Positions 2,529-30,570 of a stretch of DNA of 64,000 bases are shown here, piece by piece. The stretch covers positions 1-64,000 of the forward strand of contig JAHRHY010000007.1 in assembly GCA_019671135.1 (NCBI GenBank). The letters are read 5' to 3'. Under the pieces are notes generated by a model. The model made no database searches and had not been told where the DNA came from. It saw only the letters and a program-made list of their open reading frames with translations. The position numbers and the translations under genes were made by a program. Every line of letters starts with the position of its first letter. Positions within the stretch are counted from its first letter, which is position 1. The stretch is from Linnemannia hyalina. Taxonomy: Eukaryota; Mortierellomycota; Mortierellomycetes; Mortierellales; Mortierellaceae.

Positions 2529-3530
2529 ATGGTTACCCCTGCCCGCCTTAACCCCCCTCCTGTCTTTACAGGCGCCCGCGACGGTTTCTCTGCCTTGGCC
2601 TGGCTCGTTGCGGTTAACCGCTACTTCAACCTTGCTAAGATAAGTGAGACTGAACGAACACCCCACGCTCTCTCGTACTTGGGCACGCCTGGCCCTGCCC
2701 GATGGTTTGATGGATGTGGGCTCCCTGATACTTGCAACTTCGAGACCGAGTTTACTCCTGCTTTTAAGCTAGAGTACATTCCCAACAACTTTGCGGGCTC
2801 CTGTCGACGACACCTCACCAATCTTCGCATGACCAACAACTTTTCGACCTACTTATCTACATTCAAGGAACTTTTGGGCGCCCTCCTTGGTTATGCCTCC
2901 ACCGACGCTGCCAAGACCACGGTCAACGAGTTTGCCCAAACATCCTTTATCGACAACTGCCCCTTGGTTCTTCAACAGATGATCGAAGGACACATTATTC
3001 AAAACCCCAATATCACCCTCATTCAGATCTTTCAATACGCCCAAGAGATGGACCGCATTTACTCCTTCAAACCCGACACCGGCCCCAAGACCAACTCGCT
3101 CGCCATCGCCTCCGCCCCCATTATTTCTTCCTTCACCTCTTCCTCCGCTCTCTCTCAAGCCACCCCCATGGAAATCGATAACATCCAGATCGCCCTCAAC
3201 AATATCACCCAACGATTTAATCGCCTAGAGAGAAACATGGGTCATAACAATAACTACAACCGCAACAACAATAACAACAACGGCCCCCGAAACAACAACA
3301 ACAACGGTAATCCCCCTTCCCTGACCCCTCAGGAACGCGAATGGTGTAAAAACAACAATGCTTGCCGTCGCTGTCGCCAACCTGGACATTATGCAAAGGA
3401 GTGCCCCATCTACGGCGACAACAACAACACCAACCGTGGCAACAACAACAACCGCCAAGGACGATGGGTTTATCAAGTAGCCGTGGGTGATTCCCCCGAG
3501 TCGGGAAAAGCCTCCGACGATCAGGCTTAG
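2529..3530 (+). CDS. gag: Chromovirus Gag
   Basis: A 333-residue capsid/nucleocapsid polyprotein is read from the ATG at 2529 (MVTPARLNPP), the first ATG in a frame that is open further upstream. The N-terminal two thirds match the usual retrotransposon capsid style (LSYLGTPGPARWF, then helical blocks). A low-complexity Asn/Gly/Arg stretch precedes one CCHC zinc knuckle, CRRCRQPGHYAKEC, near 3361-3402, for RNA packaging. Gag ends 21 nt downstream of a canonical slippery heptamer, so Gag-Pol is probably made by -1 frameshifting. Confidence 0.9.
   Translation: MVTPARLNPPPVFTGARDGFSALAWLVAVNRYFNLAKISETERTPHALSYLGTPGPARWFDGCGLPDTCNFETEFTPAFKLEYIPNNFAGSCRRHLTNLRMTNNFSTYLSTFKELLGALLGYASTDAAKTTVNEFAQTSFIDNCPLVLQQMIEGHIIQNPNITLIQIFQYAQEMDRIYSFKPDTGPKTNSLAIASAPIISSFTSSSALSQATPMEIDNIQIALNNITQRFNRLERNMGHNNNYNRNNNNNNGPRNNNNNGNPPSLTPQEREWCKNNNACRRCRQPGHYAKECPIYGDNNNTNRGNNNNRQGRWVYQVAVGDSPESGKASDDQA
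3503..3509 (+). other. Putative -1 ribosomal frameshift site, GGGAAAA
   Basis: In the gag frame this reads TCG GGA AAA, that is G GGA AAA, matching the canonical X XXY YYZ pattern. The pol frame is -1 to gag and is open from 3491, after a TGA at 3488-3490, so the 40-nt overlap (3491-3530) contains exactly one such heptamer. No downstream pseudoknot was worked out. Confidence 0.65.
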
Positions 3531-6500
3531 TCCAGGACTTGATCGTCGACGTTCCCTCCCTTTCTCCTCTGGACAAAGGGAGTGTTTCCTTACCAGAGTT
3601 AAGTTACAGTTCCAAGAATAAAAATTCTGCTATCAAAAACACTCCCCCCTCTGTATCCATTATTCGCACTACCACATCCGCACCTCGTAGCCTACACAAA
3701 CTCTCCTTCTCTCCTCCTCCACTCTCCCTTTTTCCCTCATCCATCCCTGCCTCGCCTCGTACTCCCTCCTCAATTGCCATCGACTCGACCACCACTGCCC
3801 CCAACACTCACTCCACCACGGTACCCTTTGACGATGAGTTACAACTCACCGACGACGTATCTGATACCTCGTCTGTTGGTCTTAGCCCATCAGAAGAAGT
3901 GGACCTGGACCCACTCTCCTCTCCTGCTGCTTTAGACCAACCCATGTCCAAGCGCAGGACCAAACGCTTGCGACACAAATCCGTCCGCCTGCACGCTTTT
4001 ACGGCCGAGAAAGCCTCCCGTACGCTCTTGTCGTTTATTGGTAATGTGGCTGGTGCCCCTGCGCGTATTTTAATCGATTGCGGTGCGGAAGGGAACGTCA
4101 TCAGTTCTTCTTTTTGCAAACAACACTCCCTCACTCGCACTCCTGGCCCCTCCATCCCCATCATCCTTCCAAACGGTTCCTCTTCCATTTCATCATCCAC
4201 CTCCACCTTTACCATCGACCGCGACCACTACTCCGACAAACTGGAAGCACTCGTTTACCCCCTCTCCAACTACGACCTCATCCTTGGAAAACCCTGGCTA
4301 ACGACCATCAACCCTTTCATCAACTGGCGAAACAACGACCTTCACTTCACCCACAATGGACACACTGTTCTCTGGCGCTGTCGTGGTGCCAACGCCAACT
4401 CCATCTCCGCTCGCACACAAGGGAAACTCCTCTCTCACCTTCACTTTCACTCCCTTGCTACCCAACCTGGAAACGCTGTCTACCTCGCCCTCGTCAAAAT
4501 CGCTAAAAAGACCAACGACAACAACAGTAACGACAACAAGCCGACCTCCCCTCCACTCTCACCCGACATTCACAACATCGTCCACAACGAGTTCCCCGAC
4601 GTTTTCCCTTCCTCACTCCCCTCTGGCCTTCCCCCTGACAGAGGCGATGCAATGAAGATCGAAACTGATCCGAGCGCTGATCCCCCCTTTCGCCCTGTTA
4701 TACGTCTCTCGATTGCTGAATTGGATGAACTAAGGAAGCAACTCGACGACCTACTTGGCAAAGGCTTTATCAAACCCTCTACCTCCCCTTATGGTGCCCC
4801 TGTGTTGTTTGTGAAAAAGAAGGATGGTTCCTTGCGTATGTGTGTTGATTACAGAGGGTTAAACCGGATTACAAAAAAGAACAGACACCCCCTTCCCCGC
4901 ATTGATGAACTTATCGACCGTTTCCGCGGGGCACGCTACTTTACCAAACTTGACCTCCTCTCCGGTTACCATCAGCAACGTATAGCAGAAGAGGACACAC
5001 ACAAGACAGCCTTCCGTTGCCGCTACGGCCATTTCGAATTTAATGTGGTCCCTTTCGGGTTAACGAATGCACCGGCGTCCTTCTCCAATATGATGCTACG
5101 AGTATTAGACCCTGTTCTCGACAAGTGGGTTGTTGTTTACCTCGACGACATTCTTATCTACTCGCGCACCGAGGCCGAACATCTACAACATCTCCGATCC
5201 GTCCTCACGCTCCTCCGCAAGTACGGTCTCTACGCCAAGTTGAGCAAGTGCTCCTTTATGCAGGAAGAGACCGAGTTCCTCGGCCACGTCATCTCCAAGG
5301 ACGGTATCCACACGAGCGGCGGTCTCGTTCGTGCCATCCGTGAATGGCCCCGTCCCCAGAAGCAGAAAGATGTTCAGCAGTTTGTTGGTCTTGCACAGTT
5401 CTATCATCAGTACATCGCTAACTTTGCCTCGATCGCCCTACCGTTGACCGCTCTCTTAGGTGAAGGCGTTCCTTTCTCTTGGTCTCAGGAGCAGGAAGTA
5501 GCGTTTACGACTCTGAAGGAGGCCATCAGTAAAGCACCTGTTCTACATATCTTCGACCCCGACCTTCTAACAACCGTCGAAACCGATGCCTCCGGCTTTG
5601 CTCTCGGTGCCGTTCTCTTTCAGACCGATGAGCATGGCGAGTCGCGCCCCGTCGCCTTCACCTCCCGCAAGCTGAACTCTGCCGAACGCAACTACCCAAC
5701 ACACGAACAGGAACTGTTGGCTGTTGTACATGCATTGAAGACATGGCGCTACTATCTGGACGGATCCCACTTCATTGTATACACCGACCATGCCACCCTC
5801 CAACACTTCCCCACTCAACCCAAACTCACCCGCCGTCAGGCCCGCTGGATGGAACTGTTGCAGGAATACAACTTCACCTTCAAGTATAAGAAAGGAGCCG
5901 ACAACATTGTCCCAGATGCCCTGTCTCGCCGACCGGACCATAGAGAGATTAACACACTCTCAGTACAGCTCGACCCCAGGCTCCGGCAGCGCCTGATGGA
6001 TGGTTACAAAGAGGATCACCGCCTCAAACCGATCTATGAAAGCTGCCTCCAGGGAAGTCCACCGTCTAATTACTCTCTTGTTGATGGTGTTCTTTGCATT
6101 CAACGTAATGATCTTTTACTTGTTTGTATCCCCTCGAACTCTGACCTTCGGCTTTCTCTTCTTCACGATGCACACGACTCCGCTATAGCTGGTCACTTCG
6201 GTTTCGAGAAGACGTACGGTCATCTCCACTCGCGGTTCTTCTGGCCATCTATGGCGAAGGACACCCGGCTGTATGTGCAGACCTGTGAGTCGTGCCAAAG
6301 GACTAAGCCCAGCAACCAACCACCTGCTGGCCTCCTCCAGCCCCTACCCATTCCCGATCGACCCTGGCAAACGGTGACAATGGACTTTGTCGGCCCCCTA
6401 CCCAAGACCCCACGCGGCTTTGACTCCATTACGGTCTTTGTTGACAAACTCACAAAGCAAGTGCACTTTGCCCCCTGCCACACCACCGACTCCGCCTCGC

Positions 6501-7447
6501 AAGTTGCACGCATTTTTTTCGACCATGTTTTCCGCTTGCACGGCATGCCGACCACTATTGTCTCCGACCGCGATACCAAGTTCACGAGCCGCTTTTGGAA
6601 AGAATTGAGCCGTCTGATGGACGTCCACCTTGCCATGTCGACTGCCTTCCACCCTCAGACCGATGGCCAGACCGAGCGTGCCAACCGCACCCTTATCACC
6701 ATGCTCCGTAACTTTGTCGACCAACGGCAGTCTAACTGGGACCTCCTACTTTCCGCCGCCGAATTTGCCACGAACAACGCCACCAATGCCTCCACTGGAG
6801 TCTCCCCGTTCTTCTTGAACTCCGGAGCCCATCCCAACATGCCCATGTCATTGTTGACCCCTACTCCCGGCCCCAACCCATCGGTTAACGAGTTCGTGCA
6901 ATCTCGAAGCGAAGCCCTCACCCTCGCTAAGGAGTCCCTTGCTGCCGCCCAAGAACGTCAAGCAGCCAACGCCGACATCCGTCGGCGAGAGCATGATTTC
7001 AAGGTTGGTGACCACGTTCTCCTTAACCTTGAGAATATCACCTTACCCTCGGACCGCACCCGCACGTCGCAGAAACTCTTGGCTCGCTTTGCCGGCCCCC
7101 ACACCATTGTTGAACAGCTGTCCCCGGTCTCCATCCGCCTTGATCTTCCACCGTCCATGAAGATTCACCCCGTCTTCCACGTCGACCGATTCCGACGCTA
7201 CCAACCATCACCTGCGACGCTAGGACCAAGAACACCAGCACGGCCACCACCGGTTATCGTTGAAGATGAGGAAGAGTATGAGGTCGAGGCCATTGCAGAT
7301 CATAGGAAGGTTAACAACAACATGGAGTACCTTCTACAATGGCAAGGATACCCGCGCGAGGACTGGACATGGGAACCAGAGAGTGAACTGGCACACTGTA
7401 AGGACATCCTCAACAAGTACAAGCGCGACCATGGCCTTAGGACTTAG
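3509..7447 (+). CDS. pol: Chromovirus Pol: protease, RT, RNase H, integrase, chromodomain
   Basis: After a -1 shift the frame runs uninterrupted for about 1310 codons. Domains in order: aspartic protease (IDCGAEGNVISS near 4075, a DCG variant of DTG), reverse transcriptase (YLDDILIYS near 5138), RNase H (ETDASGFALG, YTDHATLQHF), integrase with an HHCC motif (HFGFEKTYGH... CESCQ), core acidic residues in MDFVGPLP, SDRDTKF and GQTERANRT, a GPY/F-like module, and a chromodomain at about 7270-7430 (LLQWQGYPREDWTWEP). Chromodomains target such elements to modified histones. The TAG stop at 7445-7447 straddles the junction with the next element, so the natural last residues are lost. No start codon is needed if frameshifting is used. 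Confidence 0.93.
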   Translation, partial: SLRRSGLVQDLIVDVPSLSPLDKGSVSLPELSYSSKNKNSAIKNTPPSVSIIRTTTSAPRSLHKLSFSPPPLSLFPSSIPASPRTPSSIAIDSTTTAPNTHSTTVPFDDELQLTDDVSDTSSVGLSPSEEVDLDPLSSPAALDQPMSKRRTKRLRHKSVRLHAFTAEKASRTLLSFIGNVAGAPARILIDCGAEGNVISSSFCKQHSLTRTPGPSIPIILPNGSSSISSSTSTFTIDRDHYSDKLEALVYPLSNYDLILGKPWLTTINPFINWRNNDLHFTHNGHTVLWRCRGANANSISARTQGKLLSHLHFHSLATQPGNAVYLALVKIAKKTNDNNSNDNKPTSPPLSPDIHNIVHNEFPDVFPSSLPSGLPPDRGDAMKIETDPSADPPFRPVIRLSIAELDELRKQLDDLLGKGFIKPSTSPYGAPVLFVKKKDGSLRMCVDYRGLNRITKKNRHPLPRIDELIDRFRGARYFTKLDLLSGYHQQRIAEEDTHKTAFRCRYGHFEFNVVPFGLTNAPASFSNMMLRVLDPVLDKWVVVYLDDILIYSRTEAEHLQHLRSVLTLLRKYGLYAKLSKCSFMQEETEFLGHVISKDGIHTSGGLVRAIREWPRPQKQKDVQQFVGLAQFYHQYIANFASIALPLTALLGEGVPFSWSQEQEVAFTTLKEAISKAPVLHIFDPDLLTTVETDASGFALGAVLFQTDEHGESRPVAFTSRKLNSAERNYPTHEQELLAVVHALKTWRYYLDGSHFIVYTDHATLQHFPTQPKLTRRQARWMELLQEYNFTFKYKKGADNIVPDALSRRPDHREINTLSVQLDPRLRQRLMDGYKEDHRLKPIYESCLQGSPPSNYSLVDGVLCIQRNDLLLVCIPSNSDLRLSLLHDAHDSAIAGHFGFEKTYGHLHSRFFWPSMAKDTRLYVQTCESCQRTKPSNQPPAGLLQPLPIPDRPWQTVTMDFVGPLPKTPRGFDSITVFVDKLTKQVHFAPCHTTDSASQVARIFFDHVFRLHGMPTTIVSDRDTKFTSRFWKELSRLMDVHLAMSTAFHPQTDGQTERANRTLITMLRNFVDQRQSNWDLLLSAAEFATNNATNASTGVSPFFLNSGAHPNMPMSLLTPTPGPNPSVNEFVQSRSEALTLAKESLAAAQERQAANADIRRREHDFKVGDHVLLNLENITLPSDRTRTSQKLLARFAGPHTIVEQLSPVSIRLDLPPSMKIHPVFHVDRFRRYQPSPATLGPRTPARPPPVIVEDEEEYEVEAIADHRKVNNNMEYLLQWQGYPREDWTWEPESELAHCKDILNKYKRDHGLRT

Positions 7448-7897
7448 GAGGCCATCCATGTTCGGCTCCACCAACCATAGACTACAGTATAAAAATATCT
7501 GTCAACACCTATTAAAACAGTGTGTTCCTTGAGAGTACAACAAATCTCATCAGCTTTTTCCTTCCACCAGTCTCCATTTTCTACATTCACCACCACTACT
7601 TTGTAACATCATCTACTTTAGCTGAGAAAGCCTTGGACATGATCATCTCATATTGGATCCTGGATATTACAGATAGTAATTTCCTTTCCAATATGAGATG
7701 ATCATGTCCAAGGCTTTCTCAGCTAAAGTAGATGATGTTACAAAGTAGTGGTGGTGAATGTAGAAAATGGAGACTGGTGGAAGGAAAAAGCTGATGAGAT
7801 TTGTTGTACTCTCAAGGAACACACTGTTTTAATAGGTGTTGACAGATATTTTTATACTGTAGTCTATGGTTGGTGGAGCCGAACATGGATGGCCTCC
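7447..7897. repeat. Left terminal palindrome (451 bp)
   Basis: Arms of about 212 bp starting GGAGGCCATCCATG and ending in its complement CATGGATGGCCTCC are perfect inverted copies by eye. They flank a spacer near 7660-7686 that is itself a partly paired mini-hairpin (GGATATTAC, AGATA, GTAATTTCC). The arm contains TATAAAAATA. The same 451-bp unit closes the right end. Confidence 0.9.
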
Positions 7898-8510
7898 TAG
7901 TAGAGCATTTGTTTTCGTGTTTATATAATTAGCGATGGTTACTAATATCTCCTTTTCATGATATATCCTATGTGTATATCCAATATAGCACTCGTGATAC
8001 TGGTGATGATGTAGTGGTAGTTTTAAAAAAAAAGTTGGATCCCGATTTTTTTAAAAAGTAGCATAGTGGCTTTAACAAACATTGGTTGTTGGAAAGAAAG
8101 GGTAGCTGATACGTTTTTAATGGCGTTATTGCTACACTTTCTCAACAATATTCGACATTCGACATTTGACATTCGGCATTCGATTCGACAGCTGACAAAC
8201 TGTAGTTATTACCATAGTTATGATATTTGATATGAACGCATTTTGGATGACCTCGTGATTATCGTGATGTTTAATTTTAATACATTCTTGATAAACTCGT
8301 AAGTATTACAATGTTTAATGTTGACATACTTTAGGTAAGCCCACGATTTGCACGACGTTTAATATTATTACACTTTGGTTAACTTACAATTGTTATAGCA
8401 TTTATTGTTATACAGATTGTAGGTAATTACGACAATGGTAAAAACAGAGATATCGCAATTAGACCATGCATTGTGGGTAGTTGTAGATATAACAATTATA
8501 TCGTTTAAAA
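7898..8510. repeat. Left inverted repeat, unique part
   Basis: AT-rich sequence without a credible gene, repeated in inverted form at about 19640-20235. It includes a short run of ATTCGACATT-like repeats near 8140-8190. Confidence 0.8.
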
Positions 8511-9667
8511 TAGACGTTTCTTAAAACACATCACATATTTTATAATGCAAATGGCTATTATATTACAACGTTTCTATTGCATTTTGTGTGATAACAAGAT
8601 AGAAAAAATGTGTTGTTAATAGAGTAATTATGTCGTTAAAAATAGACGTTTCTTAAAACACATCACATATTTCGTGATGCAAATGGGTACGAACATTGTA
8701 ACATTTCTATCGCATTTTGTATAATAACAAGACAGAAAAATGTATTGTTAACAGAGTAATTATGTCGTTTAAAATAGACGTTTCTTAAAACGTATCACAT
8801 ATTTCGTGATGCAAATGGGTATGAACATTGTGACATTTCTATCGCATTTTGTGTGATAACAAGATAGAAAAAATGTGTTGTTAACAAAGCAATTATGTCG
8901 TTTAAAATAGACGTTTCTTAAAACACATTACATATTTCGTGATGCAAATGGGTATGAATATTGTGGCGTTTCTATCGCATTTTGTATGATAACAAGACAG
9001 AAAAAATGTGTTGTTAACAGAGTAATTATGTCGTTTAAAATGGACGTTTCTTAAAACGTATCACATATTTCGTGATGCAAATGGGTATGAACATTGTGAC
9101 ATTTCTATCGCATTTTGTGTGATAACAAGAGAGAAAAAATGTGTTGTTAACAGAGTAATTATGTCGTTTAAAATAGACGTTTCTTAAAACTTATCACATA
9201 TTTCGTGATGCAAATGGGTATGAACATTGTGACATTTCTATCGCATTTTGTGTGATAACAAGAGAGAAAAAATGTGTTGTTAACAGAGTAATTATGTCGT
9301 TTAAAATAGACGTTTCTTAAAACTTATCACATATTTCGTGATGCAAATGGGTATGAACATTGTGACATTTCTATCGCATTTTGTGTGATAACAAGAGAGA
9401 AAAAATGTGTTGTTAACAGAGTAATTATGTCGTTTAAAATAGACGTTTCTTAAAACTTATCACATATTTCGTGATGCAAATGGGTATGAATATTGTGGCG
9501 TTTCTATCGCATTTTGTATGATAACAAGACAGAAAAAATGTGTTGTTAACAGAGTAATTATGTCGTTTAAAATGGACGTTTCTTAAAACGTATCACATAT
9601 TTCGTGATGCAAATGGGTATTAACATTGTGACATTTCTATCGCATTTTGTATGATAACAAGATAGAA
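8511..9667. repeat. Subterminal tandem repeats, ~131-bp unit, about nine copies
   Basis: The unit carries the landmarks AGACGTTTCTTAAAAC, CATATTTCGTGATGCAAATG and TTTCTATCGCATTTTGT, recurring about every 131 bp. Middle copies are almost identical, outer ones more diverged, the usual sign of unequal exchange. The right repeat arm has about five copies (18993-19640). Confidence 0.9.
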
Positions 9668-9872
9668 AAAAGAAGTTGTATAAAAAAAAGTTATGTAGAC
9701 TTAGGAAATGTCCATAAAATATCGTTTGTATAATTTGGTGGTGGAAAGAAAATTGGTGGTTACAAAAAAGTGGTCGCAAAACCGCCATGATGAAGTACTT
9801 TAACATCTGGTTGAGGGGCTTGTTCCCCTATCGTGTTTATCGTTAATAGTTTTAAAAAATCCAAAAGTGTGT

Positions 9873-9880
9873 TATATAAA
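9873..9880 (+). promoter_or_regulatory. Inward TATA-like element in the left inverted repeat
   Basis: TATATAAA lies at the inner end of the repeat arm, preceded by a TTTTAAAAAA run at 9850-9859. The mirror copy at 18786-18793 stands 42 bp in front of the transposase ATG, which supports a promoter role; on this side the next ATG of a credible frame is at 10049. Confidence 0.5.
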
Positions 9881-10048
9881 GGAATTTTTGCTAATAGTTT
9901 ACGTTTAAATTCTCTTGAAATAGATGATATATGCATTATATTTCTATCCAATCTATCATGGAATATGAGATAACTTCTTTTATAGTGCAACAAATCTAAA
10001 AGTGTATTGTAGTATAGGCATTCTTCCTAATGGTTTACTAGTTATGCA

Positions 10049-10294
10049 ATGCCAACACTTAAAGAAATTAAGCAAATAATAGCCATTTATATACATGAGC
10101 ATCATATGCATCCTACAATGGCAATGTACTTGAGAGCTGTTTTGTTACGTGGTAAGTCTCAGCAAGAACTTAATGGTATGTCAAAGGAAGAACTGTGGGG
10201 ATTGGTAGACTTTTTTGCACCAGATTTACAAAAACATATGCATACAATTGGTGCATTATCATGGTCAGCACACCGAAAATTTGCTTCAGAGTAA
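10049..10294 (+). CDS. Hypothetical 81-aa protein
   Basis: The frame begins at an ATG 169 bp behind the TATA-like element in the repeat arm and stops 55 bp before the ATG of the next gene. The product is probably helical (LKEIKQIIAIYI, KSQQELNGMSKEELWGLVDF) with no membrane segment or Cys motif. The end loosely resembles SAP-type DNA-binding helices, which is only an impression. It could be a short real gene of the element or a leader of the following gene. Confidence 0.45.
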   Translation: MPTLKEIKQIIAIYIHEHHMHPTMAMYLRAVLLRGKSQQELNGMSKEELWGLVDFFAPDLQKHMHTIGALSWSAHRKFASE

Positions 10295-10349
10295 AGTGGT
10301 TTTTAAAAAGTTTGTAGTACATATCTCTGCAAACAGTAAGCTTTTCAAC

Positions 10350-12002
10350 ATGTCCGCTATACCTAAATCCATTAACAAGGCGCTGAACTCATATGCCCAT
10401 CTTATCTCTGATGTGGGCAAAGAGATTGCATTGCCTGGCAAACCAAAGACTGGCTGGAAAAAGTACTCAGAGATATTCTGCGATAGTTTAATACTCTGGG
10501 GATTGCACAACCGGGCTGACCTTGTTGACGAGCAACGCAAGAACACCACTGCCAATATTTGCGAAGCTTTTAAAGACCTTGATATTAGCCACTCCATGGT
10601 TAAAGTTGTTAACGAGGGTTATATCAAACCCAATAGTTTTTTTAGCTCTGAAATGCTACGAAAACATAGAAAAAAGTTTAGAAGTTCGGCCTTATACCAT
10701 GCAGGATATTTCAGCATTAAGGTAACGCTCAATGAACTGGAGGCCATCTCTTTAATTTCCGAGTTACCACCAATATTTCATAAGCTTGAGGTTGACTATA
10801 TTATCCTCCATGATATAGACATTGCTACGGATTGTAGATATGTTACAAGCCGTCCAATTCTTCAGCAATACCTTCAAGAGAGATTTGGAGAAGATTTGGA
10901 TATTGCCGACGATCTCCATAAGGTTGGTAACCACTGTCTCTCTTGGTTTGGAGTCACCGAAAAAGACCAAAAGGTCCGTTGTAAGGTTTATAACAAACTT
11001 GTACAGATGTTGGAGAGTGCTGAAGTAAAAATGTCGTTGGGTTCAAGAATGGAGAATTTTGTTATGGATGTGGATAAGGACCTACATAAGAGACTTCGAA
11101 AGGCGAAGAAAACAGGTCTAACAAGACTTGAAATTACCTTTTATGGACAGGAGATATATACATTCTCCTATTATAAAGGAGTTTTGGATGCCATAAAGGA
11201 AGAGATCCAAGAATGTCCCACGTTCTGCGTAAAATACAAGGCATATTGGAAGTACATAGTTGGCAATATATCATCCATGGTAGGTATTCATGTAACAATG
11301 GGTGAAAAATCGGCATTCGCATATTGCCATTGGTGGAACTCTGTTACAGGTAAGAAGTATGGTTCATATCGTAACAATGTCGAGAAAGAGGAAGCAATGA
11401 CGTTGTTAGCCAACTATAGCTTCAACGATAGACCAATATACTTTTTGGAGGTTGAGATGGATGAGAATAGCATCAAGGATATTACAGTTACCAAGTACAA
11501 ACGGCCTGACGAATGTACAGCAATAACACTTGTTGCAGGAGCACATAAAGGCATGTACCCATACATTTACGATGATGATGTTTTACAATTCGAGGATATG
11601 GGTATAGTGGAGGTAGATAATGTAAAGATCCAATGGCCTGAGAGAAGAATCCGCAAAGGTGCACCACCAATTGTTGATATTCATCTAGAAAACATGAATG
11701 GTGAGAATTTTATACAAGTCCATGATAGAGCTATCCACAAAGCAACATATAAAGCTGGATATAATGTACTTGAAATAAATACCAGCTATACAGTCATAGC
11801 AATTGCAATGGATATGTATCACAACAAAGAGTATATTTTTGCAACATTGTCCAATGGTATTAAAGTACGATGTGGACTTAGTTTAGAAACAAAGATCGTT
11901 GCATGGCTGGAAGAATATCCCGATGGCCAAGTTCCGTATATGAATTTCACCACATTGCAATGCAGAACTGTTCGCGGGTTCAAGGATATTTATATACGTT
12001 AA
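10350..12002 (+). CDS. Replication-initiator-like protein (550 aa)
   Basis: The ATG at 10350 (MSAIPKSINK) is chosen because the upstream extension of the frame has no other ATG and a TTTTTAAAAA palindrome (10300-10309) lies 40 bp in front. Three landmarks occur in the order seen in Rep_trans-type rolling-circle replication initiators: an acidic core HDIDIATDCR at residues about 154-163, a KVYNK block at about 212, and TGLTRLEITFY at about 255. In known initiators these correspond to metal-binding and fold-stabilising strands; the nicking tyrosine is not identified here. The C-terminal half is unfamiliar. The frame is intact and convergent with the transposase gene, 37 bp between stops. Family assignment is by motif pattern only. 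Confidence 0.6.
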   Translation: MSAIPKSINKALNSYAHLISDVGKEIALPGKPKTGWKKYSEIFCDSLILWGLHNRADLVDEQRKNTTANICEAFKDLDISHSMVKVVNEGYIKPNSFFSSEMLRKHRKKFRSSALYHAGYFSIKVTLNELEAISLISELPPIFHKLEVDYIILHDIDIATDCRYVTSRPILQQYLQERFGEDLDIADDLHKVGNHCLSWFGVTEKDQKVRCKVYNKLVQMLESAEVKMSLGSRMENFVMDVDKDLHKRLRKAKKTGLTRLEITFYGQEIYTFSYYKGVLDAIKEEIQECPTFCVKYKAYWKYIVGNISSMVGIHVTMGEKSAFAYCHWWNSVTGKKYGSYRNNVEKEEAMTLLANYSFNDRPIYFLEVEMDENSIKDITVTKYKRPDECTAITLVAGAHKGMYPYIYDDDVLQFEDMGIVEVDNVKIQWPERRIRKGAPPIVDIHLENMNGENFIQVHDRAIHKATYKAGYNVLEINTSYTVIAIAMDMYHNKEYIFATLSNGIKVRCGLSLETKIVAWLEEYPDGQVPYMNFTTLQCRTVRGFKDIYIR

Positions 12003-12018
12003 GAATGCTAATAGATAG

Positions 12019-12028
12019 TTTTTAAAAA
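12019..12028. promoter_or_regulatory. TTTTTAAAAA palindrome between two convergent stop codons
   Basis: This lies 17 nt behind the stop of the initiator-like gene and 12 nt behind the stop of the transposase gene on the other strand. Similar palindromes lie just outside other genes of these elements (10300, 13455, 16348, 17706, 18805), so it may be a shared transcription signal. Confidence 0.35.
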
Positions 12029-12039
12029 TTACAATGGGC

Positions 12040-12868
12040 TTACTTTGTACGCTTATATGATGGAATCTCCACTCCTGCAAAAATTTCACGTCGCTTATTA
12101 GTCGGCTCTTCCCGTTGTTTATCCTCGACATCCATAGTAGTCATCTCCAAGAACTGCTCTTGTAACTTTGTTATATCTCGTGCATCATGCAACATCTCAT
12201 CCACTGGAATATAATCCAAGATTTGTTCCATTGCACCATTGGCATATGGAAAGTCGAAGCCATCTCTAATCCAGGCACTATGAATGGGTTCCAGATTTAA
12301 CTGCAGTAGTGCCACCATCTTCTTGATGTTCATAAGTAAGAGACACAATCGCAATTGCAAATTATATGTTTCTATCTTGGTTACCAACACTGGTTTCCTA
12401 TTGTTGTGCTTCTCAAAGGTTGCTCCAAGATCTCCAAATTCGGCTTCTATCTGAGAGCGGAAACTGCCGAAAATCTTATTGTAGTTAGTTTCATCTTGTG
12501 CAAGATCTTTCCCACGGCTTTTGCGAATTGGATAACAAAAGTTTTTCTTGCTCATGCTTGTTTCTTCTACTATTTTCTTAATGTATTGTGTGTACCCTCC
12601 ATCCAATGCAATACAATCTAGCTCGTGGATGTGCTTATGTATCTTCATACCAACCAACATAGTACCATCGTTGTTATCCTTGCAAGGTAGCGATTTAGAG
12701 ACTAGTATTGCCATGCCATTGCAATCGACACACACTTGCGTTCTTACACCAGATTTCTTCAGCTTGTAAGAGTACATGTCTGAGCTAGACTTTTCTTCAC
12801 ATGAAAGACGTGTATCATGACCATCCAAATGCAATGTTACATGTGGGAATAGTGGTGGATTCCTGAGT
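12040..12868 (-). pseudogene. DDE transposase 1, 3' half
   Basis: This is the C-terminal part of a DDE_Tnp_4-like transposase, homologous to the intact enzyme at 16369-17658. It carries all three catalytic blocks: LHLDGHD, CIALDGGY and SFRSQIEAEFGDLGATFE. The N-terminal half is 5.4 kb away at 18315-18744 on the same strand; the two are separated by the direct-repeat element at 12873-18314 with a TTAG target duplication. Removing the insert would leave the frame intact, so loss of function is due to the insertion alone. The open frame seen running past 12873 is repeat sequence, not native protein. Confidence 0.85.
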
Positions 12869-12872
12869 TTAG

Positions 12873-13366
12873 CGGCCCCTTCATGTGCAGAGGATATAAA
12901 AAGGCATATAAAAAATATCCAAAGTCCAAGGAACGGAGTGTTGACTTCCATAACTGGCATATCTCTTCATAGTGGGCAACAGAACACAGAATAAAATAGC
13001 AATAGACAGCACAAGAATTTTTAAAATGTAATCTCTCCCCTGTATTTCACGACAAAGATACAGTTGAGAATACAAGTGCTTTAGATGATCACATACAAGA
13101 ACTACTCTGTCGAATCTTGCAGTGAGGGTTACAGGTTAATAGTAGATGGACATATTCAAGAGTTTGGTGTGCGAAAAATAAGAAGACTTTGTTGTTTGGA
13201 GAATAGGTTGGTGTTTAGTAGGATAGTTAAACAAAAAATGTTACAATGGTTGTCTTATATGCTTGGTATCATATATACATTCTCCTCTAATGGACGCGGT
13301 GGATATCGTCAAGATCTGCAGAGATGTAACAAACACCATATGATAATTTGGACTTGAAAGGCCTCC
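12873..13366. repeat. 494-bp terminal repeat, left copy (subtype A)
   Basis: The unit starts CGGCCCCTTCATGTG and ends GAAAGGCCTCC; the two tips are imperfect inverted repeats. It contains AGGATATAAAAAGGC and a TTTTTAAAAT palindrome. Two short open frames start back to back 9 bp apart in its middle; they recur in other copies simply because the repeat does. Confidence 0.9.
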
Positions 13367-13489
13367 TAGGTGGAAGTGTCGAAGACATGTTACATTTTTA
13401 AAAAGTTCATGCTATATATACAACCACAAATGCCAACTGTTGACAATTGGATAGTTTTTAAAATATCTACTCTTCATCTGTCTCAACAA

Positions 13490-15694
13490 CTACCAAAACT
13501 TTACATCTGGAGAGTACAATTTAGGCAATTCCTCGATCGTGAACCCCATGGCAATTAACTTCTGCTTTTGTTTGTTGTTGGTAAATTTGTCTCGACTATA
13601 GTTACTGTCACCGTTTGCAGGTATCTTATACAGCAGTCCAACAATAATGTCCTCTTCGTACCTCTTGAGCAGATGACATCCGTCGAAAAGGTAGTTGGTT
13701 GCATATTCATGCTTCTTGTCAAACGAACATGTTGTCCATTTAATTTCGTCTTTATCTATGACGATTATACCCGAGGAGCTTTTATCTTTAGGGTACCTTT
13801 TCCACATAACATCCTCAGCATCTTTATCATCCTCAGCATCTTTATCATCTTCAGCATCGTTATCACCCTCAGCATCTTTGTCATCCTCAGCATCGTTATC
13901 ACCCTCAGCATCTTTGTCATCTTCAGCATCTTTATCACCCACCGCATCTTTGTCATCCTCAGCATCTTTATCGCCCTCAGCATCTTTATCATCCTCACAT
14001 GTGCTCTCATCTTTCTGTGGCAAGCTTTGCTTATGCTCATGCGGTTTAAATCCCATAGCAAACAACTTCTCTTTTTCCTTCTGGCTAAGAGAATGACACT
14101 CTACATTCTCTGCAGCAATATGGTCATCAGTCATCAAGCCGATTACAGTGTCTTTTTTGCGCATCTTGAGAATGTGCATTCCATTTACAAGTACATTCTC
14201 GGAATATTCCAAGTACTTGTTAAGTTTTTTCCATATCACCTTGGATTTATCTGTTGGTCCTTCTACTGGTACTTCTTCTTCTACTTCGATCTCCTCGTTG
14301 AAAAGCGTCTTTCTCTCTTCATCAGACAATGGTTGAAGTTTCATCTTGCTAAGCATGGAGCGTTCCAAGATATCCAACTCTGGAACATCACCGACACCGC
14401 GCAGAGCATCAAGCGTAAACAGGCCAACGTATGTATTCTTTCCAGATAGCCTGACAATGTACTTGCCATTCATCGTAAACTTAGTTGCATACTCAAGCAT
14501 GTCGTTATTAGGATGAATCATCCATCCTCTGTCCTTCGCACGTGCTATGTCTTTCTCTGATCTAATGTTATGCACCGTTGTGGCCAGTGCAAATGTATGT
14601 TCATCTTTTCCATCCTTAGAAACGTCTACATTAGAAGATGGCTCTGCATTTTTGGGCATCTCTGAATGCCTTTTCTTTCGAGAAGTCTTCTTCTCATCAT
14701 CCTTAGATGACTTTTTATGAGATAGTTTTTCATCAGGGTTATCCTTAGAGGTATCATCTCCAGATTCTACATCAGGTCTGTTATTGGACTTGCCATCATC
14801 AGAGTCTTTATCATCAGGGGAATCATCGTCAGAGCCAGCATCATCAGACGTATCACCATCATCTGTATCATCCTCAGAATTCTCATCAGCAGAAGACTCT
14901 TCTATTTTTTCTACATCTGCAGGAGTTGCCTCTTGGAGTCCCATCTTTTGCAATATACGTACCTCTTTGTCAGATATTTCCGGTACAGGAAGATTTTTCC
15001 CCATGAGCTCAGGTGGACACAATACAATGTAGAGGTCCTTTTCCTTCAGCTTAATAATGTACTTGCCATTTACAGTAAAGTTCTTTGCATATAGAAAAGC
15101 TGGATTAGTTGCATAACGCATCCATATGCCTGTATTAGCGAGTGGTACATTTTTCTTGGACGTTATGTCAACTACCTTTGGACTCAACGGAAAGGAGACG
15201 GCAATTTTATCTTCTTCATCATCATCGTCGGACGGCTCTTCATCCTCGGAAGTCATATCGTCATCAGATGATACAAACTTAGAAGTATGTGTCTTCTTTA
15301 AAGCCTTGGAAGACTTGGGACGCGTAACGACAGGTGCATTCTTGTTACCACGTTTTATATGACCTCTATCTTGATCTTGATGACGCCCACAGTATGTTTG
15401 ACCAATTTTGGCTACACTACCACAATTAGCGCCCTTAATGGTTGTGCCTTGACACTTGCGCGCAGGATCGTGGACATAACAATGCATGCCTTCATCGTCA
15501 ACTTCCTTCATGCATTTACGCTTGGACTTGACGCACTTTGCTCCACAAAAGTAGTATCTCTCCACTTCCTTATCCCCATCAAGCGCCTTAAAGATCTTAT
15601 TTGCATCTTTCTTGGTAAACTCCACTCCCTTCTTAGAAGAAAATGTCTCGAAGGCCTTGGTGATGAGCTCGATTGTAAGCTGAACGTACTGCAT
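13490..15694 (-). CDS. Cys-rich zinc-binding protein with acidic linkers and four repeats (734 aa)
   Basis: The product is read from the ATG at 15694. Residues 50-105 hold Cys50, 54, 61, 72, 81, 91, 102 and His75, 105, with the pattern CQGTTIKGANC...YCGRH typical of small C-x(n)-C-x(n)-C-x2-H zinc units. Four copies of a ~65-residue module follow at about 191-253, 395-460, 490-555 and 650-725, each with W, a Y/N-A-N/T core, NGKYIIKL-like strand and a closing K-M/A-MG. Between them are Asp/Glu/Ser/Lys-rich linkers and a DKDAE-type run coded by a minisatellite near 13810-14000. Similar Cys/His units and short repeated modules occur in large DNA virus proteins; that link is inference. A TATAAATA lies about 220 bp upstream. 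The job is unknown; a DNA-binding or accessory role in transposition would fit. Confidence 0.75.
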   Translation of the reverse strand: MQYVQLTIELITKAFETFSSKKGVEFTKKDANKIFKALDGDKEVERYYFCGAKCVKSKRKCMKEVDDEGMHCYVHDPARKCQGTTIKGANCGSVAKIGQTYCGRHQDQDRGHIKRGNKNAPVVTRPKSSKALKKTHTSKFVSSDDDMTSEDEEPSDDDDEEDKIAVSFPLSPKVVDITSKKNVPLANTGIWMRYATNPAFLYAKNFTVNGKYIIKLKEKDLYIVLCPPELMGKNLPVPEISDKEVRILQKMGLQEATPADVEKIEESSADENSEDDTDDGDTSDDAGSDDDSPDDKDSDDGKSNNRPDVESGDDTSKDNPDEKLSHKKSSKDDEKKTSRKKRHSEMPKNAEPSSNVDVSKDGKDEHTFALATTVHNIRSEKDIARAKDRGWMIHPNNDMLEYATKFTMNGKYIVRLSGKNTYVGLFTLDALRGVGDVPELDILERSMLSKMKLQPLSDEERKTLFNEEIEVEEEVPVEGPTDKSKVIWKKLNKYLEYSENVLVNGMHILKMRKKDTVIGLMTDDHIAAENVECHSLSQKEKEKLFAMGFKPHEHKQSLPQKDESTCEDDKDAEGDKDAEDDKDAVGDKDAEDDKDAEGDNDAEDDKDAEGDNDAEDDKDAEDDKDAEDVMWKRYPKDKSSSGIIVIDKDEIKWTTCSFDKKHEYATNYLFDGCHLLKRYEEDIIVGLLYKIPANGDSNYSRDKFTNNKQKQKLIAMGFTIEELPKLYSPDVKFW
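13810..14000. repeat. Coding minisatellite, 15/30-bp units
   Basis: Repeats of CATCTTTATCATCCTCAG-like units encode the DKDAEDDKDAEG run in the third linker of the Cys-rich protein. The frame is kept throughout. Confidence 0.85.
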
Positions 15695-16368
15695 GTTTTT
15701 GGATATGAACGATATAGATTGTACTTGTGGTATGGTGGGTGTGAATGACTTTTCAGTTTATGTGTGGTAGATTGCAGCTGCTTAGTACACTGATATAAAG
15801 AATTGCAATAAAAGATGGTTGTATAGGTATGGATGGTTGTATAGATATGGATAATGGTTGGTTGGTTACTAGATAAGATAAAGATTAAGCAAGAGGGAAG
15901 TGGAGTCCTTTATTTATACTAATTCATGGGACACTGCCACATTGGATATTAATAGCGCTTGCTTATTAACACTGCTTGGCGCTTAGTAACAAAAGAGTTT
16001 TAAAAAGGCATCTAAGTGGTTAATAACGTAGTGTTCCTCGTATGACGTAGATCTTGCTTATTAAGACTGCTTGGCGTTAAAGACGGGGTTTAAAAATGGT
16101 TAAGAATGTAGTATTCTTTTATGACGTAGGTTTGTACATGTGTTTATGTATTCTTTTATGACGTAGGTTTGTACATGTGTTTATCCTCTTTGTTAAATAA
16201 AAAGGAATGTTGTAGAATAGCATAGAATAGCATCCGATCTACTACAATAATACCATGACTTTTAATAATAGATACCGGTGCATATTAGCGTCTAGGCAGT
16301 TAATACCGTATCTCAACGCTGACTAAATAGGCTATGTATGACTATTCTTTTAAAAACCTGCAATAAGT
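15695..16368. promoter_or_regulatory. Intergenic region with TATAAATA and repeated TGACGTAG motifs
   Basis: This AT-rich spacer separates the two minus-strand genes of the element. A TATAAATA (minus, near 15912-15919) suits the Cys-rich gene. TATGACGTAG occurs four times, two of them within a perfect 36-bp tandem duplication (about 16112-16183) that is single in the second copy of the element. TGACGT is the core of ATF/CREB-type sites; binding here is a guess. CTTTTAAAAACC lies 13 nt behind the transposase stop. Confidence 0.45.
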
Positions 16369-17658
16369 CTACAGATTACCATTAACATCCATTTGTCGCT
16401 TCGTACCTCTAAGCTCAATGGAAAGACCGGGTTGCATTATTACTGCTTGATCCATTGGTGTGTCCTCATCAACATTAACATCAACATCACCATGAAGATT
16501 AATACCAAGAAATTTGTTCTGGAGTTGTGCCATTGTATTTCCATCCTCCACTAGCGCACCAACATCAACATATCCCATTGGTTGCTCAACGTCGTTCTCT
16601 GTTGTCGGATACTCGAATCCTTCGCGAAGCCAAGCTGTATGAATTGGTTCTGCAGAAATCTTCAACAAAGCAACCATCTTTTTCATGTTTAAGAGTAACA
16701 AAGATAACTTCAACTGCAAATTATATGTTTGTTTCTTATCCACCAACACAGGAGTACGGTTGTTGTGTTTCTCAAATGTGGAACCAAGGTCTGCAAACAG
16801 AGATTCCATCTGCGAGCGGAAACTACCAAAGGTGGTATTGTATAACGCTTCTTCCTGTGTAAGTTCCTTGTTCTTCTGTTTACGGTATGGATGAGCGAAA
16901 TTTTGGACTTTAAGAGTATCAGACTCATCTATAAGCCTCCTTAAGAACTGTGGATACCCTCCATCGAGAGCAATGCAATCCATCTCATGCACTCTCTTGT
17001 CCAACTTCATCGTTAGCAGCATTGTTCCATCAGCATTGTTCTTGCAAGATGCAGATTTGGAGACAAATAAAGCCATGCCATTACAATCCATTGCTACCTG
17101 TGTGCGTAATCCTGACTTTTTCAGCTTGTAAGAGTACATATCAGCACTGCTCTCACCTTTGTATGTTGCTCTTGTATCATGACCATCAAGATGCAATGTA
17201 ACATGCTTAAATAATGGAGGATTCTTTTCCTTTGCAGACAAAAGGCGTATTTTAATTGTGGAGAACATTGTTGCAATGCAGTTGGTGATGTACTTGTTGT
17301 GCAAAGTATATTCTTTCTTATAAAACACAGAGTGCATTGCATGAAAGCTACTTTTTGGCATGTGTGGTTCCATTGCTTCCATAGACAGTCCTTTGACAAG
17401 ATGGTAGAGCATTAAAAGACCTTTCTCCACTTCTTTGTATGGACCAGGATACTTAACCTTTGGCCAGATGTCAACAAGAAAGAAGTACACTGGAATAGGA
17501 CCAAGGCGTCGATTTAGGGTTTCTTTTATTTCTGGCATATACCCAATTTCCTTGCTTACAGTACGATGATTATTACGTGGTGTAATTGTTGGCCATCCAG
17601 CGTTGAGGAAAGTCCAATGGTCATCAAGCAGTTGTTGGAAGTGTTTTGTTAGATCCAT
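16369..17658 (-). CDS. DDE transposase 2 (429 aa)
   Basis: The start is the ATG at 17658 (MDLTKHFQQL), 48 bp behind a TTTTTTAAAAA palindrome. The N-terminal half has a helix-turn-helix-like block (VEKGLLMLYHLVKGLSMEAM) and the C-terminal half an RNase H-fold DDE core in DDE_Tnp_4 style: Asp158 in LHLDGHD, Asp232 in CIALDGGY and Glu285 in SFRSQMESLFADLG. The tail is acidic. It is intact, with a near-identical copy at 26319-27614 and a more distant homolog in the outer element. It probably moves the direct-repeat elements and perhaps the solo 494-bp units, which share the ends. Confidence 0.88.
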   Translation of the reverse strand: MDLTKHFQQLLDDHWTFLNAGWPTITPRNNHRTVSKEIGYMPEIKETLNRRLGPIPVYFFLVDIWPKVKYPGPYKEVEKGLLMLYHLVKGLSMEAMEPHMPKSSFHAMHSVFYKKEYTLHNKYITNCIATMFSTIKIRLLSAKEKNPPLFKHVTLHLDGHDTRATYKGESSADMYSYKLKKSGLRTQVAMDCNGMALFVSKSASCKNNADGTMLLTMKLDKRVHEMDCIALDGGYPQFLRRLIDESDTLKVQNFAHPYRKQKNKELTQEEALYNTTFGSFRSQMESLFADLGSTFEKHNNRTPVLVDKKQTYNLQLKLSLLLLNMKKMVALLKISAEPIHTAWLREGFEYPTTENDVEQPMGYVDVGALVEDGNTMAQLQNKFLGINLHGDVDVNVDEDTPMDQAVIMQPGLSIELRGTKRQMDVNGNL

Positions 17659-17820
17659 AATAATATTTATGTATTGGATTGTCATGACGTTAACCAACAA
17701 TAACAATTTTTTAAAAAGGCTTATACTTAACTGCATACACAACAGCATGTAGGATGGTATCTATCATACAGCAAGCACATAGTTGAGAATACAAATATAT
17801 TTTTATATTTTATTCGGTAG

Positions 17821-18314
17821 CGGCCCCTTCATGTGCAGAGGATATAAAAAGGCATATAAAAAATATCCAAAGTCCAAGGAACGGAGTGTTGACTTCCATA
17901 ACTGGCATATCTCTTCATAGTGGGCAACAGAACACAGAATAAAATAGCAATAGACAGCACAAGAATTTTTAAAATGTAATCTCTCCCCTGTATTTCACGA
18001 CAAAGATACAGTTGAGAATACAAGTGCTTTAGATGATCACATACAAGAACTACTCTGTCGAATCTTGCAGTGAGGGTTACAGGTTAATAGTAGATGGACA
18101 TATTCAAGAGTTTGGTGTGCGAAAAATAAGAAGACTTTGTTGTTTGGAGAATAGGTTGGTGTTTAGTAGGATAGTTAAACAAAAAATGTTACAATGGTTG
18201 TCTTATATGCTTGGTATCATATATACATTCTCCTCTAATGGACGCGGTGGATATCGTCAAGATCTGCAGAGATGTAACAAACACCATATGATAATTTGGA
18301 CTTGAAAGGCCTCC
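17821..18314. repeat. 494-bp terminal repeat, right copy (subtype A)
   Basis: The copy is identical by eye to 12873-13366 and in the same orientation. It is followed by TTAG, the target duplication. Confidence 0.9.
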
Positions 18315-18744
18315 TTAGCAGACATCAAGCGTATAGGAAATGTGGAGAACATATTCGCAAGTGCATGGTTAATATGCTTCGAATGCACATTATAGTTAGT
18401 CTTGTAGAACTCTGTATGAATGGAGTGGAAACTACTTTTTGGTATGTGGGTTGACATTCCATCCATTGCCAAGCCTGCAACTAAGTGGTACAATATCAAC
18501 AATCCTTTGTCGACTTCTCTGTATGGACCTGGATACTGCTTGAGAGACCAAATAACTACAAGAAAGTAGAATACAGGAATTGCACCTAATCTTCTTATAA
18601 GTAAGTCTTTAACAGTTTTCATATGTGCTACTAGCTTCAACGCAGTCCTATGATTATTAGATGGTTCTTGCGTAGGCCATTCTACATCCAAAAAAGTCCA
18701 TTCATCCTCTAACAACCGTTGAAATAGGCGCTTTAAGTTTGCCA
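18315..18744 (-). pseudogene. DDE transposase 1, 5' half
   Basis: The coding part begins at the ATG at 18744 (MANLKRLFQRLLED), 42 bp behind the TATATAAA of the right repeat arm. It matches the N-terminal half of transposase 2, including GAIPVFYFLVVIW, the helix-turn-helix-like block and IPKSSFHSIH, and ends at RLMSAK where the direct-repeat element entered. The catalytic half lies at 12040-12868. Confidence 0.85.
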
Positions 18745-18763
18745 TGACTGTAATTACAACCTG

Positions 18764-20235
18764 GTAAACTATTAGCAAAAATTCCTTTATATAACACACT
18801 TTTGGATTTTTTAAAACTATTAACGATAAACACGATAGGGGAACAAGCCCCTCAACCAGATGTCAAAGTATTTCATCATGGCGGTTTTGCGACAACTTTT
18901 TTGTAACCACCAATTTTCTCCCAACCACCAAAGTATACAAACGATATTTTATAGACATTTCCTAAGTCTACATAACTTTTATTTATACAACTTCTTTTTT
19001 CTGTCTTGTTATCATACAAAATGCGATAGAAATGTCACAATGTTCATACCCATTTGCATCACGAAATATGGGGTACGTTTTAAGAAACGTCTATTTTTAA
19101 AGACATAGTTGCTCTTTAAACAACACATTTTCTCTACCTTATTATTACACAAAATGCAATAGAAATGTCACAATGTTCATACCCATTTGCATCACGAAAT
19201 ATGTAATGTGTTTTAAGAAACGTCTATTTTAAACGACATAACTATTCTGTTAACAACTTCTTTTTTCTGTCTTGTTATCACACAAAATGCGATAGAAATG
19301 TCACAATGTTCATACCCATTTGCATCACGAAATATGTGATACGTTTTAAGAAACGTCCATTTTAAACGACATAATTACTCTGTTAACAACACATTTTCTC
19401 TACCTTATTATCACACAAAATGCGATAGAAACGCCACGATGTTTATATCCATTTGCATCACGAAATATGTGATGTGTTTTAAGAAACGTCTATTTTTAAC
19501 GACATAATTACTCTATTAACAATACATTTTTTCTATCTTGTTATCACACAAAATGCAATAGAAACGTTGTAATATAATAGCCATTTGCATTATAAAATAT
19601 GTGATGTGTTTTAAGAAACGTCTATTTTAAACGATATAATTGTTATATCTACAACTACCCACAATGCATGGTCTAATTGCGATATCTCTGTTTTTACCAT
19701 TGTCGTAATTACCTACAATCTGTATAACAATAAATGCTATAACAATTGTAAGTTAACCAAAGTGTAATAATATTAAACGTCGTGCAAATCGTGGGCTTAC
19801 CTAAAGTATGTCAACATTAAACATTGTAATACTTACGAGTTTATCAAGAATGTATTAAAATTAAACATCACGATAATCACGAGGTCATCCAAAATGCGTT
19901 CATATCAAATATCATAACTATGGTAATAACTACAGTTTGTCAGCTGTCGAATCGAATGCCGAATGTCAAATGTCGAATGTCGAATATTGTTGAGAAAGTG
20001 TAGCAATAACGCCATTAAAAACGTATCAGCTACCCTTTCTTTCCAACAACCAATGTTTGTTAAAGCCACTATGCTACTTTTAAAAAAATCGTGATCCAAC
20101 TTTTTTTTAAAACTACCACTACATCATCACCAGTATCACGAGTGCTATATTGGATATACACATAGGATATATCATGAAAAGGAGATATTAGTAACCATCG
20201 CTAATTATATAAACACGAAAACAAATGCTCTACTA
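18764..20235. repeat. Right inverted repeat with about five ~131-bp tandem units
   Basis: This is the inverted counterpart of 7898-9902. Tandem units (18993-19640) carry GTTTTAAGAAACGTCT about every 132 bp. The inner end has a TATATAAA on the minus strand (18786-18793) directed at transposase 1. Confidence 0.9.
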
Positions 20236-20686
20236 GGAGGCCATCCATGTTCGGCTCCACCAACCATAGACTACAGTATAAAAATATCTGTCAACACCTA
20301 TTAAAACAGTGTGTTCCTTGAGAGTACAACAAATCTCATCAGCTTTTTCCTTCCACCAGTCTCCATTTTCTACATTCACCACCACTACTTTGTAACATCA
20401 TCTACTTTAGCTGAGAAAGCCTTGGACATGATCATCTCATATTGGATCCTGGATATTACAGATAGTAATTTCCTTTCCAATATGAGATGATCATGTCCAA
20501 GGCTTTCTCAGCTAAAGTAGATGATGTTACAAAGTAGTGGTGGTGAATGTAGAAAATGGAGACTGGTGGAAGGAAAAAGCTGATGAGATTTGTTGTACTC
20601 TCAAGGAACACACTGTTTTAATAGGTGTTGACAGATATTTTTATACTGTAGTCTATGGTTGGTGGAGCCGAACATGGATGGCCTCC
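20236..20686. repeat. Right terminal palindrome (451 bp)
   Basis: The same 451-bp palindrome as at 7447-7897. Its central spacer reads in the same plus-strand direction as the left one, so relative to the element the two ends carry opposite spacer orientations. Confidence 0.9.
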
Positions 20687-20689
20687 TAA

Positions 20690-20822
20690 TGTAATTAGGC
20701 TAGAGACAGTAATTTAGTCATATGACCAGACACCGACATAAATGGAGGTGTCTGGGCTGTTAACAAAGATCCCTCTCTTGTCTTATCAATTCGATTGTGC
20801 GTGACTAGCGTAAAAATTTTCA
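20690..20822 (+). repeat. LTR of family R1, second copy, inverted relative to 270-393
   Basis: It starts TGTAATTAGG directly behind the palindrome and ends TTTTCA. A stem-loop pairs CCAGACACC (20726-20734) with GGTGTCTGG (20747-20755). No 5-bp duplication is seen; both neighbours are truncated elements. Confidence 0.75.
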
Positions 20823-24248: not shown

Positions 24249-24290
24249 TGTCTTCATCTATCTATGATCCACAAGGCAAATACGCAACAC

Positions 24291-30063: not shown

Positions 30064-30073
30064 GCCTTATAGG

Positions 30074-30567: not shown

Positions 30568-30570
30568 TTG

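Follow-up and report, generated by a model that had tools for sequence, protein, structure and literature searches.

A many-copy DNA transposon of Linnemannia hyalina with mobile palindromic tips, a DDE transposase and a probably Rep_trans-like partner protein

Introduction

What kind of element occupies positions 7447-20686 at the left end of contig 48 of the Linnemannia hyalina genome (51.5 Mb)? The stretch lies within a 64-kb segment of this fungal genome (assembly GCA_019671135.1, contig JAHRHY010000007.1, positions 1 to 64,000), hereafter called the window. An earlier note on this DNA had described a 13.2-kb element with inverted arms, palindromic tips, a replication-initiator-like gene and a DDE transposase, and had suggested either an integrated linear replicon with hairpin ends or a giant transposon using a form of this kind. 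Terminal palindromes, flip/flop forms and identical inverted repeats are features of rolling-hairpin and hairpin-telomere genomes, such as those of parvoviruses and poxviruses, and all of them recur here. Unlike these genomes, however, the element is chromosomal, bounded by target-site duplications (TSDs) and equipped with a DDE transposase. We find that the stretch is one copy of a many-copy DNA transposon, which we call element A, and not an integrated virus or replicon.

Anatomy and target sites of element A

Self-BLAST bore out the inverted arms of the window copy, 2456 bp on the left (7447-9902, forward strand) and 1923 bp on the right (18764-20686, reverse strand), each including a palindromic tip that we call P. 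The arms pair with 96.4% identity in their outer stretches (1700 bp) and with 91.8% in their inner ones (879 bp). The arms are unequal in length because their subterminal tandem arrays hold 8.9 copies on the left (8494-9671) and 4.8 copies on the right (19005-19641); these arrays had been noticed before, although Tandem Repeats Finder (TRF) sets their period at 133 bp rather than at about 131 bp. The length of 13.2 kb, in contrast, is not native to the element: the window copy is interrupted by a second transposon, element B (12872-18314), and an intact copy (L028) measures 7797 bp and has two 100% identical arms of 2191 bp each. Only two open reading frames (ORFs) of at least 150 amino acids lie inside this intact copy, namely a Rep-like gene and a DDE transposase gene. 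Among the matches listed, A stands at dozens of genomic places, which excludes chance as the source of this anatomy.

The transposase gene of the window copy is cut by B into a C-terminal part (12040-12868, reverse strand) and an N-terminal part (18318-18745, reverse strand, start approximate), and it is an intact open ORF in L028 (5132-6445). The C-terminal part, which was the part tested, matches the DDE_Tnp_4 profile PF13359 with 31.6 bits at a cut-off of 24.8, so that the DDE transposase of the earlier note is confirmed even though its gene is split. The same profile is precomputed on most of the 120 DDE relatives listed, out of 326.

Evidence for transposition comes from the target sites. 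Among 20 two-ended copies with both outer flanks readable, 15 have identical 3 bp outside both P: AAA in three copies, TAT, ATG, ATA and TTA in two each, and TTT, TAA, CAT and TAG in one each. Duplication of TWA is not the rule, given that just three of the 15 TSDs are TTA or TAA. Copies with one readable outer flank are excluded from this set (an A end at C33:66079 was dropped for its unreadable right flank), and three distant pairs of ends (C19 45212-64578, C12 1892964-1911848 and C33 42934-55823) were assumed from their orientation to belong together. Four of the six two-ended copies tested for an empty site, the internally deleted L010 as well as L013, L024 and L025, match an uninterrupted relative at 100% over 80 of 80 bases; for L012 and L027, an empty site was looked for in the available sequence and none was found. 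TSDs and empty sites together identify the outer ends of P (GGAGGCCATCC) as the ends joined to the target.

These results bear directly on the replicon of the earlier note. A virus-like linear replicon whose hairpin ends are covalently closed, once integrated, would be in keeping with the palindromic tips, the two orientations of their centres, the identical arms and the initiator-like protein, all of which resemble hairpin-replicating genomes. Such a replicon is expected to integrate without a TSD of the whole unit, whereas the duplications of A lie outside complete tips and are accompanied by empty sites, a DDE transposase and a content of two ORFs. Having rejected an integrated virus or replicon on these grounds, we consider this origin very improbable. 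A peptide-pattern scan of IMG/VR with the Rep alignment gave 27 pattern matches, none of which was confirmed as a relative. The giant transposon that had been offered as the other option survives in part.

The window copy itself has a composite history. Its left and right arms are of different haplotypes, its flanks read TTA on one side and TAA on the other, and a paralogue of its right flank (20686-20819) runs on uninterrupted at 265-398. From this combination, we infer a recombinant: two A insertions probably recombined to give a chimeric window copy. This copy is also split by B.

The palindromic tip P

The left tip (7447-7897) is a 451-bp palindrome with the termini GGAGGCCATCC and GGATGGCCTCC, and the right tip (20236-20686) is identical to it. 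The tip is its own reverse complement save for a 29-bp centre, which contains all of the 25 mismatched positions; the 451-bp palindromes described earlier thus stand, broken at this point alone. Both ends of each P have one and the same sequence. The TATA boxes that had been read as pointing inward are present as TATA-like motifs, one per palindrome half (7488, forward; 7847, reverse), and therefore face the centre of P and not the genes. The junction between P and arm is constant across the A ends listed, except at the right end of L017, where M, the end unit of element B, intervenes.

P also occurs without A. Twelve further P loci were fetched (40 of 118 candidates in the search were scored), comprising nine solo copies flanked by 3-bp duplications, a damaged double and two loci that end fragments of A, and a tenth solo copy interrupts the A copy L021 within its transposase gene. 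At all ten sites the solo P is the 451-bp unit with 3-bp duplications, and for six of them an empty counterpart matches at 98.75-100% over 80 bases. The loci L031 and L039, whose flanks are mirror images, may represent a single site. By the earlier note's own terms, its reading would be refuted if the palindrome were an unrelated insertion present at many other sites without the element. This applies in part: the palindrome is indeed found by itself, but it is not unrelated, as the outer ends of P are the ends of A. P is thus both a mobile module and the functional tip of A, and its solo copies may be either independent jumps of a miniature inverted-repeat transposable element (MITE) or what remained of an A whose two tips had recombined.

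The centre of P is found in both orientations relative to the arm, with 19 ends of form F1 and 16 of form F2 among the 35 ends that have a defined centre (the duplicate L004 was removed, three centre-deleted ends were left unscored and the shared P of L018 was counted once per side). This orientation varies even among copies whose adjoining arm is identical. Within a copy, the two arms tend to agree: over the 590 bp beside P they are identical in seven of 11 copies (L013, L014, L023, L024, L025, L027 and L028) and differ at one position in L012, five in the window copy, eight in L018 and 63 in L010, the last because a deletion shortens its right arm. Over 1740 bp, the arms are identical in five of six copies tested and the sixth, L012, has two differences. 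Between copies, the arm haplotypes differ.

Some tips are shared. Two A copies at C13 780385-795523 have one P in common and lack matching TSDs. Neighbouring A copies linked via one shared P were seen at L018 (C13 786924-796514) and at L023 (C9); the shared P on C9 has a centre deletion, and the centres of L016 and L023 are deleted at the same place.

The Rep-like protein

The Rep-like gene of the window copy (10350-12002, forward strand) encodes 550 amino acids from the first methionine, with a Rep_trans active-site pattern; from stop to stop, its ORF has 597 codons. It is whole in at least 29 genome copies of the A type, and a second type with 38-40% identity is present in at least 26 copies, of which 25 are free of stops (73 of 182 candidates from the genome search were scored). 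The ratio of nonsynonymous to synonymous changes (pN/pS) is 0.09-0.30 in a comparison of six copies, calculated for the 12 of 15 pairs with more than 15 changes. Named relatives come from Mortierella, Linnemannia, Podila, Actinomortierella, Haplosporangium and Gryganskiella; two of these genera are confirmed members of the Mortierellomycota, to which the remaining ones presumably belong as well. When the protein database was searched again with a profile, the 95 hits contributed just five new proteins, all of them short. The sole other label among the relatives is that of P0213, from a metagenome-assembled genome of a Nitrososphaerales archaeon (2.3-kb contig), which is probably a fungal contaminant.

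Rep_trans enzymes (PF02486; RepDE, RepSTK1) have a curved sheet resembling that of the TATA-binding protein (TBP) and an active site with the order D...D, [RK]xYxKxx[EQ] and RxE, one Asp lying near the N terminus (PMC4797284; this and the other papers are cited from excerpts). The AlphaFold model of the Rep-like protein has a weak likeness to Rep_trans initiators and TBP alike, and its residues K213-x-Y215-x-K217-xx-Q220, D46, D158, E262 and R260 are conserved in 70-71 of 71 aligned members. Following the published Rep_trans site, the predicted nucleophile is Y215, the tyrosine of KVYNK, the metal ligands have their predicted counterparts in D46, D158 and E262, and a lysine takes the position of R189 in the excerpted text of PMC4797284. 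On the strength of model and motif, the protein probably looks and works like a Rep_trans endonuclease. Residues 311-345 (FAYCHWWNS.T.KKYG) form a second block with conservation about equal to that of the active-site block, in a region barely covered by the fold search.

Several observations weigh against this assignment. TBP chains score as high on the model as Rep_trans proteins do, and the counterparts of the active-site residues were matched by sequence order and kind of strand alone, without superposition. The PF02486 profile matches neither the Rep-like protein nor anything else in the genome (of the 14 control genomes, Bacillus subtilis gave a match). Alignment of the Rep-like family with eight Rep_trans proteins by hhalign was not significant (E 0.39 and 0.22), which leaves fold and motif to carry the case for Rep_trans. 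We therefore do not claim family membership, given the missing profile link and the middling structural scores shared with TBP. The Rep_trans hint of the earlier note is supported by modelled fold and active-site pattern but not by sequence profiles. Further differences from Rep_trans proteins are the length of 550 amino acids with additional C-terminal parts and the location on a fungal chromosome next to a DDE gene.

Other searches gave no alternative assignment. The Rep-like protein has no Pfam match, the best Pfam value being 0.0033 for Filamin in one of the 71 aligned members; PHROGs yielded nothing credible, and a sequence search of solved structures with the query A1 gave one chance-level match. 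Four proteins were discarded as Rep_trans references, XacF1 and fs2 for being other initiator types by Pfam, and Pf1 orf430 and SMA9 rstA for having no Pfam match.

Rep-Arvir proteins of archaeal viruses are another case in which only structure and active site reveal a likeness to Rep_trans. They, too, give matches to TBP, and also to inovirus Rep proteins, but they are archaeal, have a KHYYM tyrosine motif and contain a winged-helix domain (PMC13107129). According to the same excerpt, Rep_trans enzymes appear restricted to bacteria, to which archaeal viruses are now added (PMC13107129, 2026).

Relation to known transposons and proposed mechanism

Judged by its transposase and 3-bp TSD, element A belongs to the PHIS superfamily, outside the groups named in the excerpt (PIF/Harbinger, ISL2EU, Spy, Pangu and Nuwa; PMC4482050). 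It has the DDE_Tnp_4 transposase, the 3-bp AT-rich TSD, the two genes and the terminal inverted repeat (TIR) starting with G that are typical of this superfamily, and departs from it by TSDs beyond TWA, palindromic mobile tips and a Rep-like partner instead of a Myb/SANT protein (PMC4482050). PIF/Harbinger TIRs measure 5-1042 bp, about 93% of them less than 60 bp, whereas the arms of A, at 2.19 kb, are more than 30 times as long as most (PMC4482050). No Myb/SANT Pfam match was found in the second protein or in the 71 aligned members. PHISTA, a Harbinger-related element of rust fungi, is also a fungal PHIS transposon with a partner other than Myb/SANT; however, this partner is a TET/JBP dioxygenase, the duplications are TA and the excerpt mentions no Rep-like gene (PMC12730594).

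We consider it reasonably likely that A is a PIF/Harbinger-related (PHIS) DDE transposon whose partner is a Rep_trans-like tyrosine endonuclease acting on the hairpin-forming tips or arms. The DDE transposase would cut at the GGAGGCC ends of P, the partner would bind or nick the hairpin-forming tips or arms, and nicking would prime copying or resolve hairpins. Such an action on hairpins would account for the copy number of A, the pairwise identity of its arms and the flipping of the P centre. A bolder version, which we think unlikely, makes A a self-copying transposon: the first eukaryotic Rep_trans nickase would replicate a hairpin-ended linear intermediate, with nicking or resolving of the palindromic ends giving flip/flop tips and identical arms, and the DDE transposase would insert the product with a 3-bp duplication.

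Alternatively, the Rep-like protein could be a mere DNA binder of the TBP fold that replaces Myb/SANT, flipping and arm identity being the work of host inverted-repeat recombination. While the flipping of P, the identity of the arms and the shared P would all follow from hairpin replication, they could also follow from such recombination. The five of 20 two-ended copies without matching 3 bp (the window copy, L028 and the pairs at C13, C33 and C12), together with tips that are shared or have lost their centre, suggest that copies do recombine with each other, and both the scores of the TBP chains and the unmatched PF02486 profile fit a binder. A pure binder, however, would have no need of a nucleophile, basic neighbours and metal ligands that are conserved in 70-71 of 71 members, in Rep_trans order and on corresponding kinds of strand, and we regard this alternative as possible yet somewhat doubtful.

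How cut-and-paste elements gain copies is a long-standing question, to which an element's own nickase, working on palindromic ends, would, if true, offer a directly testable answer. Pairing of a eukaryotic Rep_trans protein with a DDE transposase would likewise be new, and a conserved and selected relative in dozens of fungal transposon copies would carry the nickase fold into eukaryotes. Among the papers listed in searches of an open-licence library, none described a matching element, whether under Mortierella transposons or telomeres, fungal Harbinger, pT181/RepDE, eukaryotic Rep_trans or HUH enzymes, palindromic or MITE composites, or hairpin telomere and flip flop; by title and abstract, none dealt with a fungal Rep_trans element, and these searches gave no paper linking PF02486 with fungal or on Mortierellomycota transposable elements with TIRs.

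Gene pairing, family A2 and element B

In A and in a second family, A2 (L042, L065), the Rep-like and DDE genes are arranged tail to tail, about 36 bp apart; the DDE protein of A2 is 47% identical to that of A. The pairing extends to the protein database, where 12 Rep-DDE pairs agree in contig size and source; with shifted sizes, the mean is 0.86 and the maximum 4 (89 Reps and 120 DDE proteins; P0089 was omitted for want of a contig size). One pair has the neighbouring locus tags BGZ52_005333 and 005334. The arms of A2 contain units that recur every 413 bp, the family carries a small Cys-rich ORF, and its Rep has at least 26 copies in the genome. Its end (GGGAATCG...) is taken to be the point at which the arm stops in L065, L015, L019 and L020. 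No palindrome was found at this end, the longest self-inverted match within 500 bp in L065 being 20 bp at 80%. Since A2 has the gene pair without P, the Rep-DDE pairing reaches further than the palindromic tips, which may have been captured later. Ends of A without P exist in L015, L019, L020 and L009, where arm or body stops at the A2 end, which marks these copies as truncations; they also exist in L011, L026 and L017.

Element B sits in the transposase gene of A (12872-18314) with a TTA duplication at 12869-12871 and 18315-18317. Self-BLAST delimits two direct repeats at its ends in forward orientation, M, at 12872-13366 and 17820-18314; these identical repeats of about 496 bp give B a layout like that of long terminal repeats (LTRs), and within the pair a 498-bp segment is 100% identical to 17818-18315. 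B contains an ORF for a cysteine-rich acidic protein without a Pfam match (13490-15757, reverse strand) and an open DDE_Tnp_4 transposase ORF (16369-17760, reverse strand), which is 58% identical to that of A and matches PF13359 with 31.5 bits (cut-off 24.8). Other copies of M that were read are 94-100% identical to those of B. Four more copies lie in the window, at 27774-28271, 30073-30568, 43863-44360 and 45983-46479; the last two are solo, with 3-bp duplications of TTA and TAA, and the first ends a truncated B (24290-28274). B parallels the plan of A, with a complete mobile unit at each end, in direct orientation, that also occurs solo. Mobile tips in both elements suggest that this lineage builds its transposons with modular ends.

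Composite transposons and MITE-flanked macrotransposons also have complete mobile units at both ends, as A has with P and B with M, although the flanking units are here non-coding palindromes or MITEs and the junction of P and arm is fixed in the copies read. This raises the alternative that A is itself a composite, in which two palindromic MITEs flanked a Rep-DDE unit with long arms and their outer ends took over, the solo copies of P being independent MITE insertions. Solo P with TSDs, the same end sequence on both sides of P, the P-less end of A2 and the plan of B all speak for such an origin. The solo copies could equally be remnants, similar to solo LTRs, of recombination between the two P of one A, however, and among the one-ended copies examined for it, L015, L019, L020 and L009, no ancestral P-less end was identified, these being later truncations. 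We give this composite origin, solo insertions included, slightly less than an even chance.

Surroundings of the element

Copies of the A type are concentrated towards contig ends: 28 of 37 places, counted on contigs of known size and without a 67%-identical type, are no more than 100 kb away from a contig end, a zone that makes up 10% of this sequence. The window itself begins with a telomere-like array of CCCTAAAAAA at 3-267 (TRF), a 10-bp unit that is, to our knowledge, unusual for a fungus. Rfam and tRNA scans of the window found nothing. An ORF at 3491-7447 resembles, as judged by eye, a Ty3-type retrotransposon polyprotein, and it ends in a stop codon that extends over the first base of A's left tip. 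A 208-bp repeat is present at 2117-2324 and 41746-41953 in opposite orientations (99% identity) and recurs in the transposase region of the A2 copy in L041.

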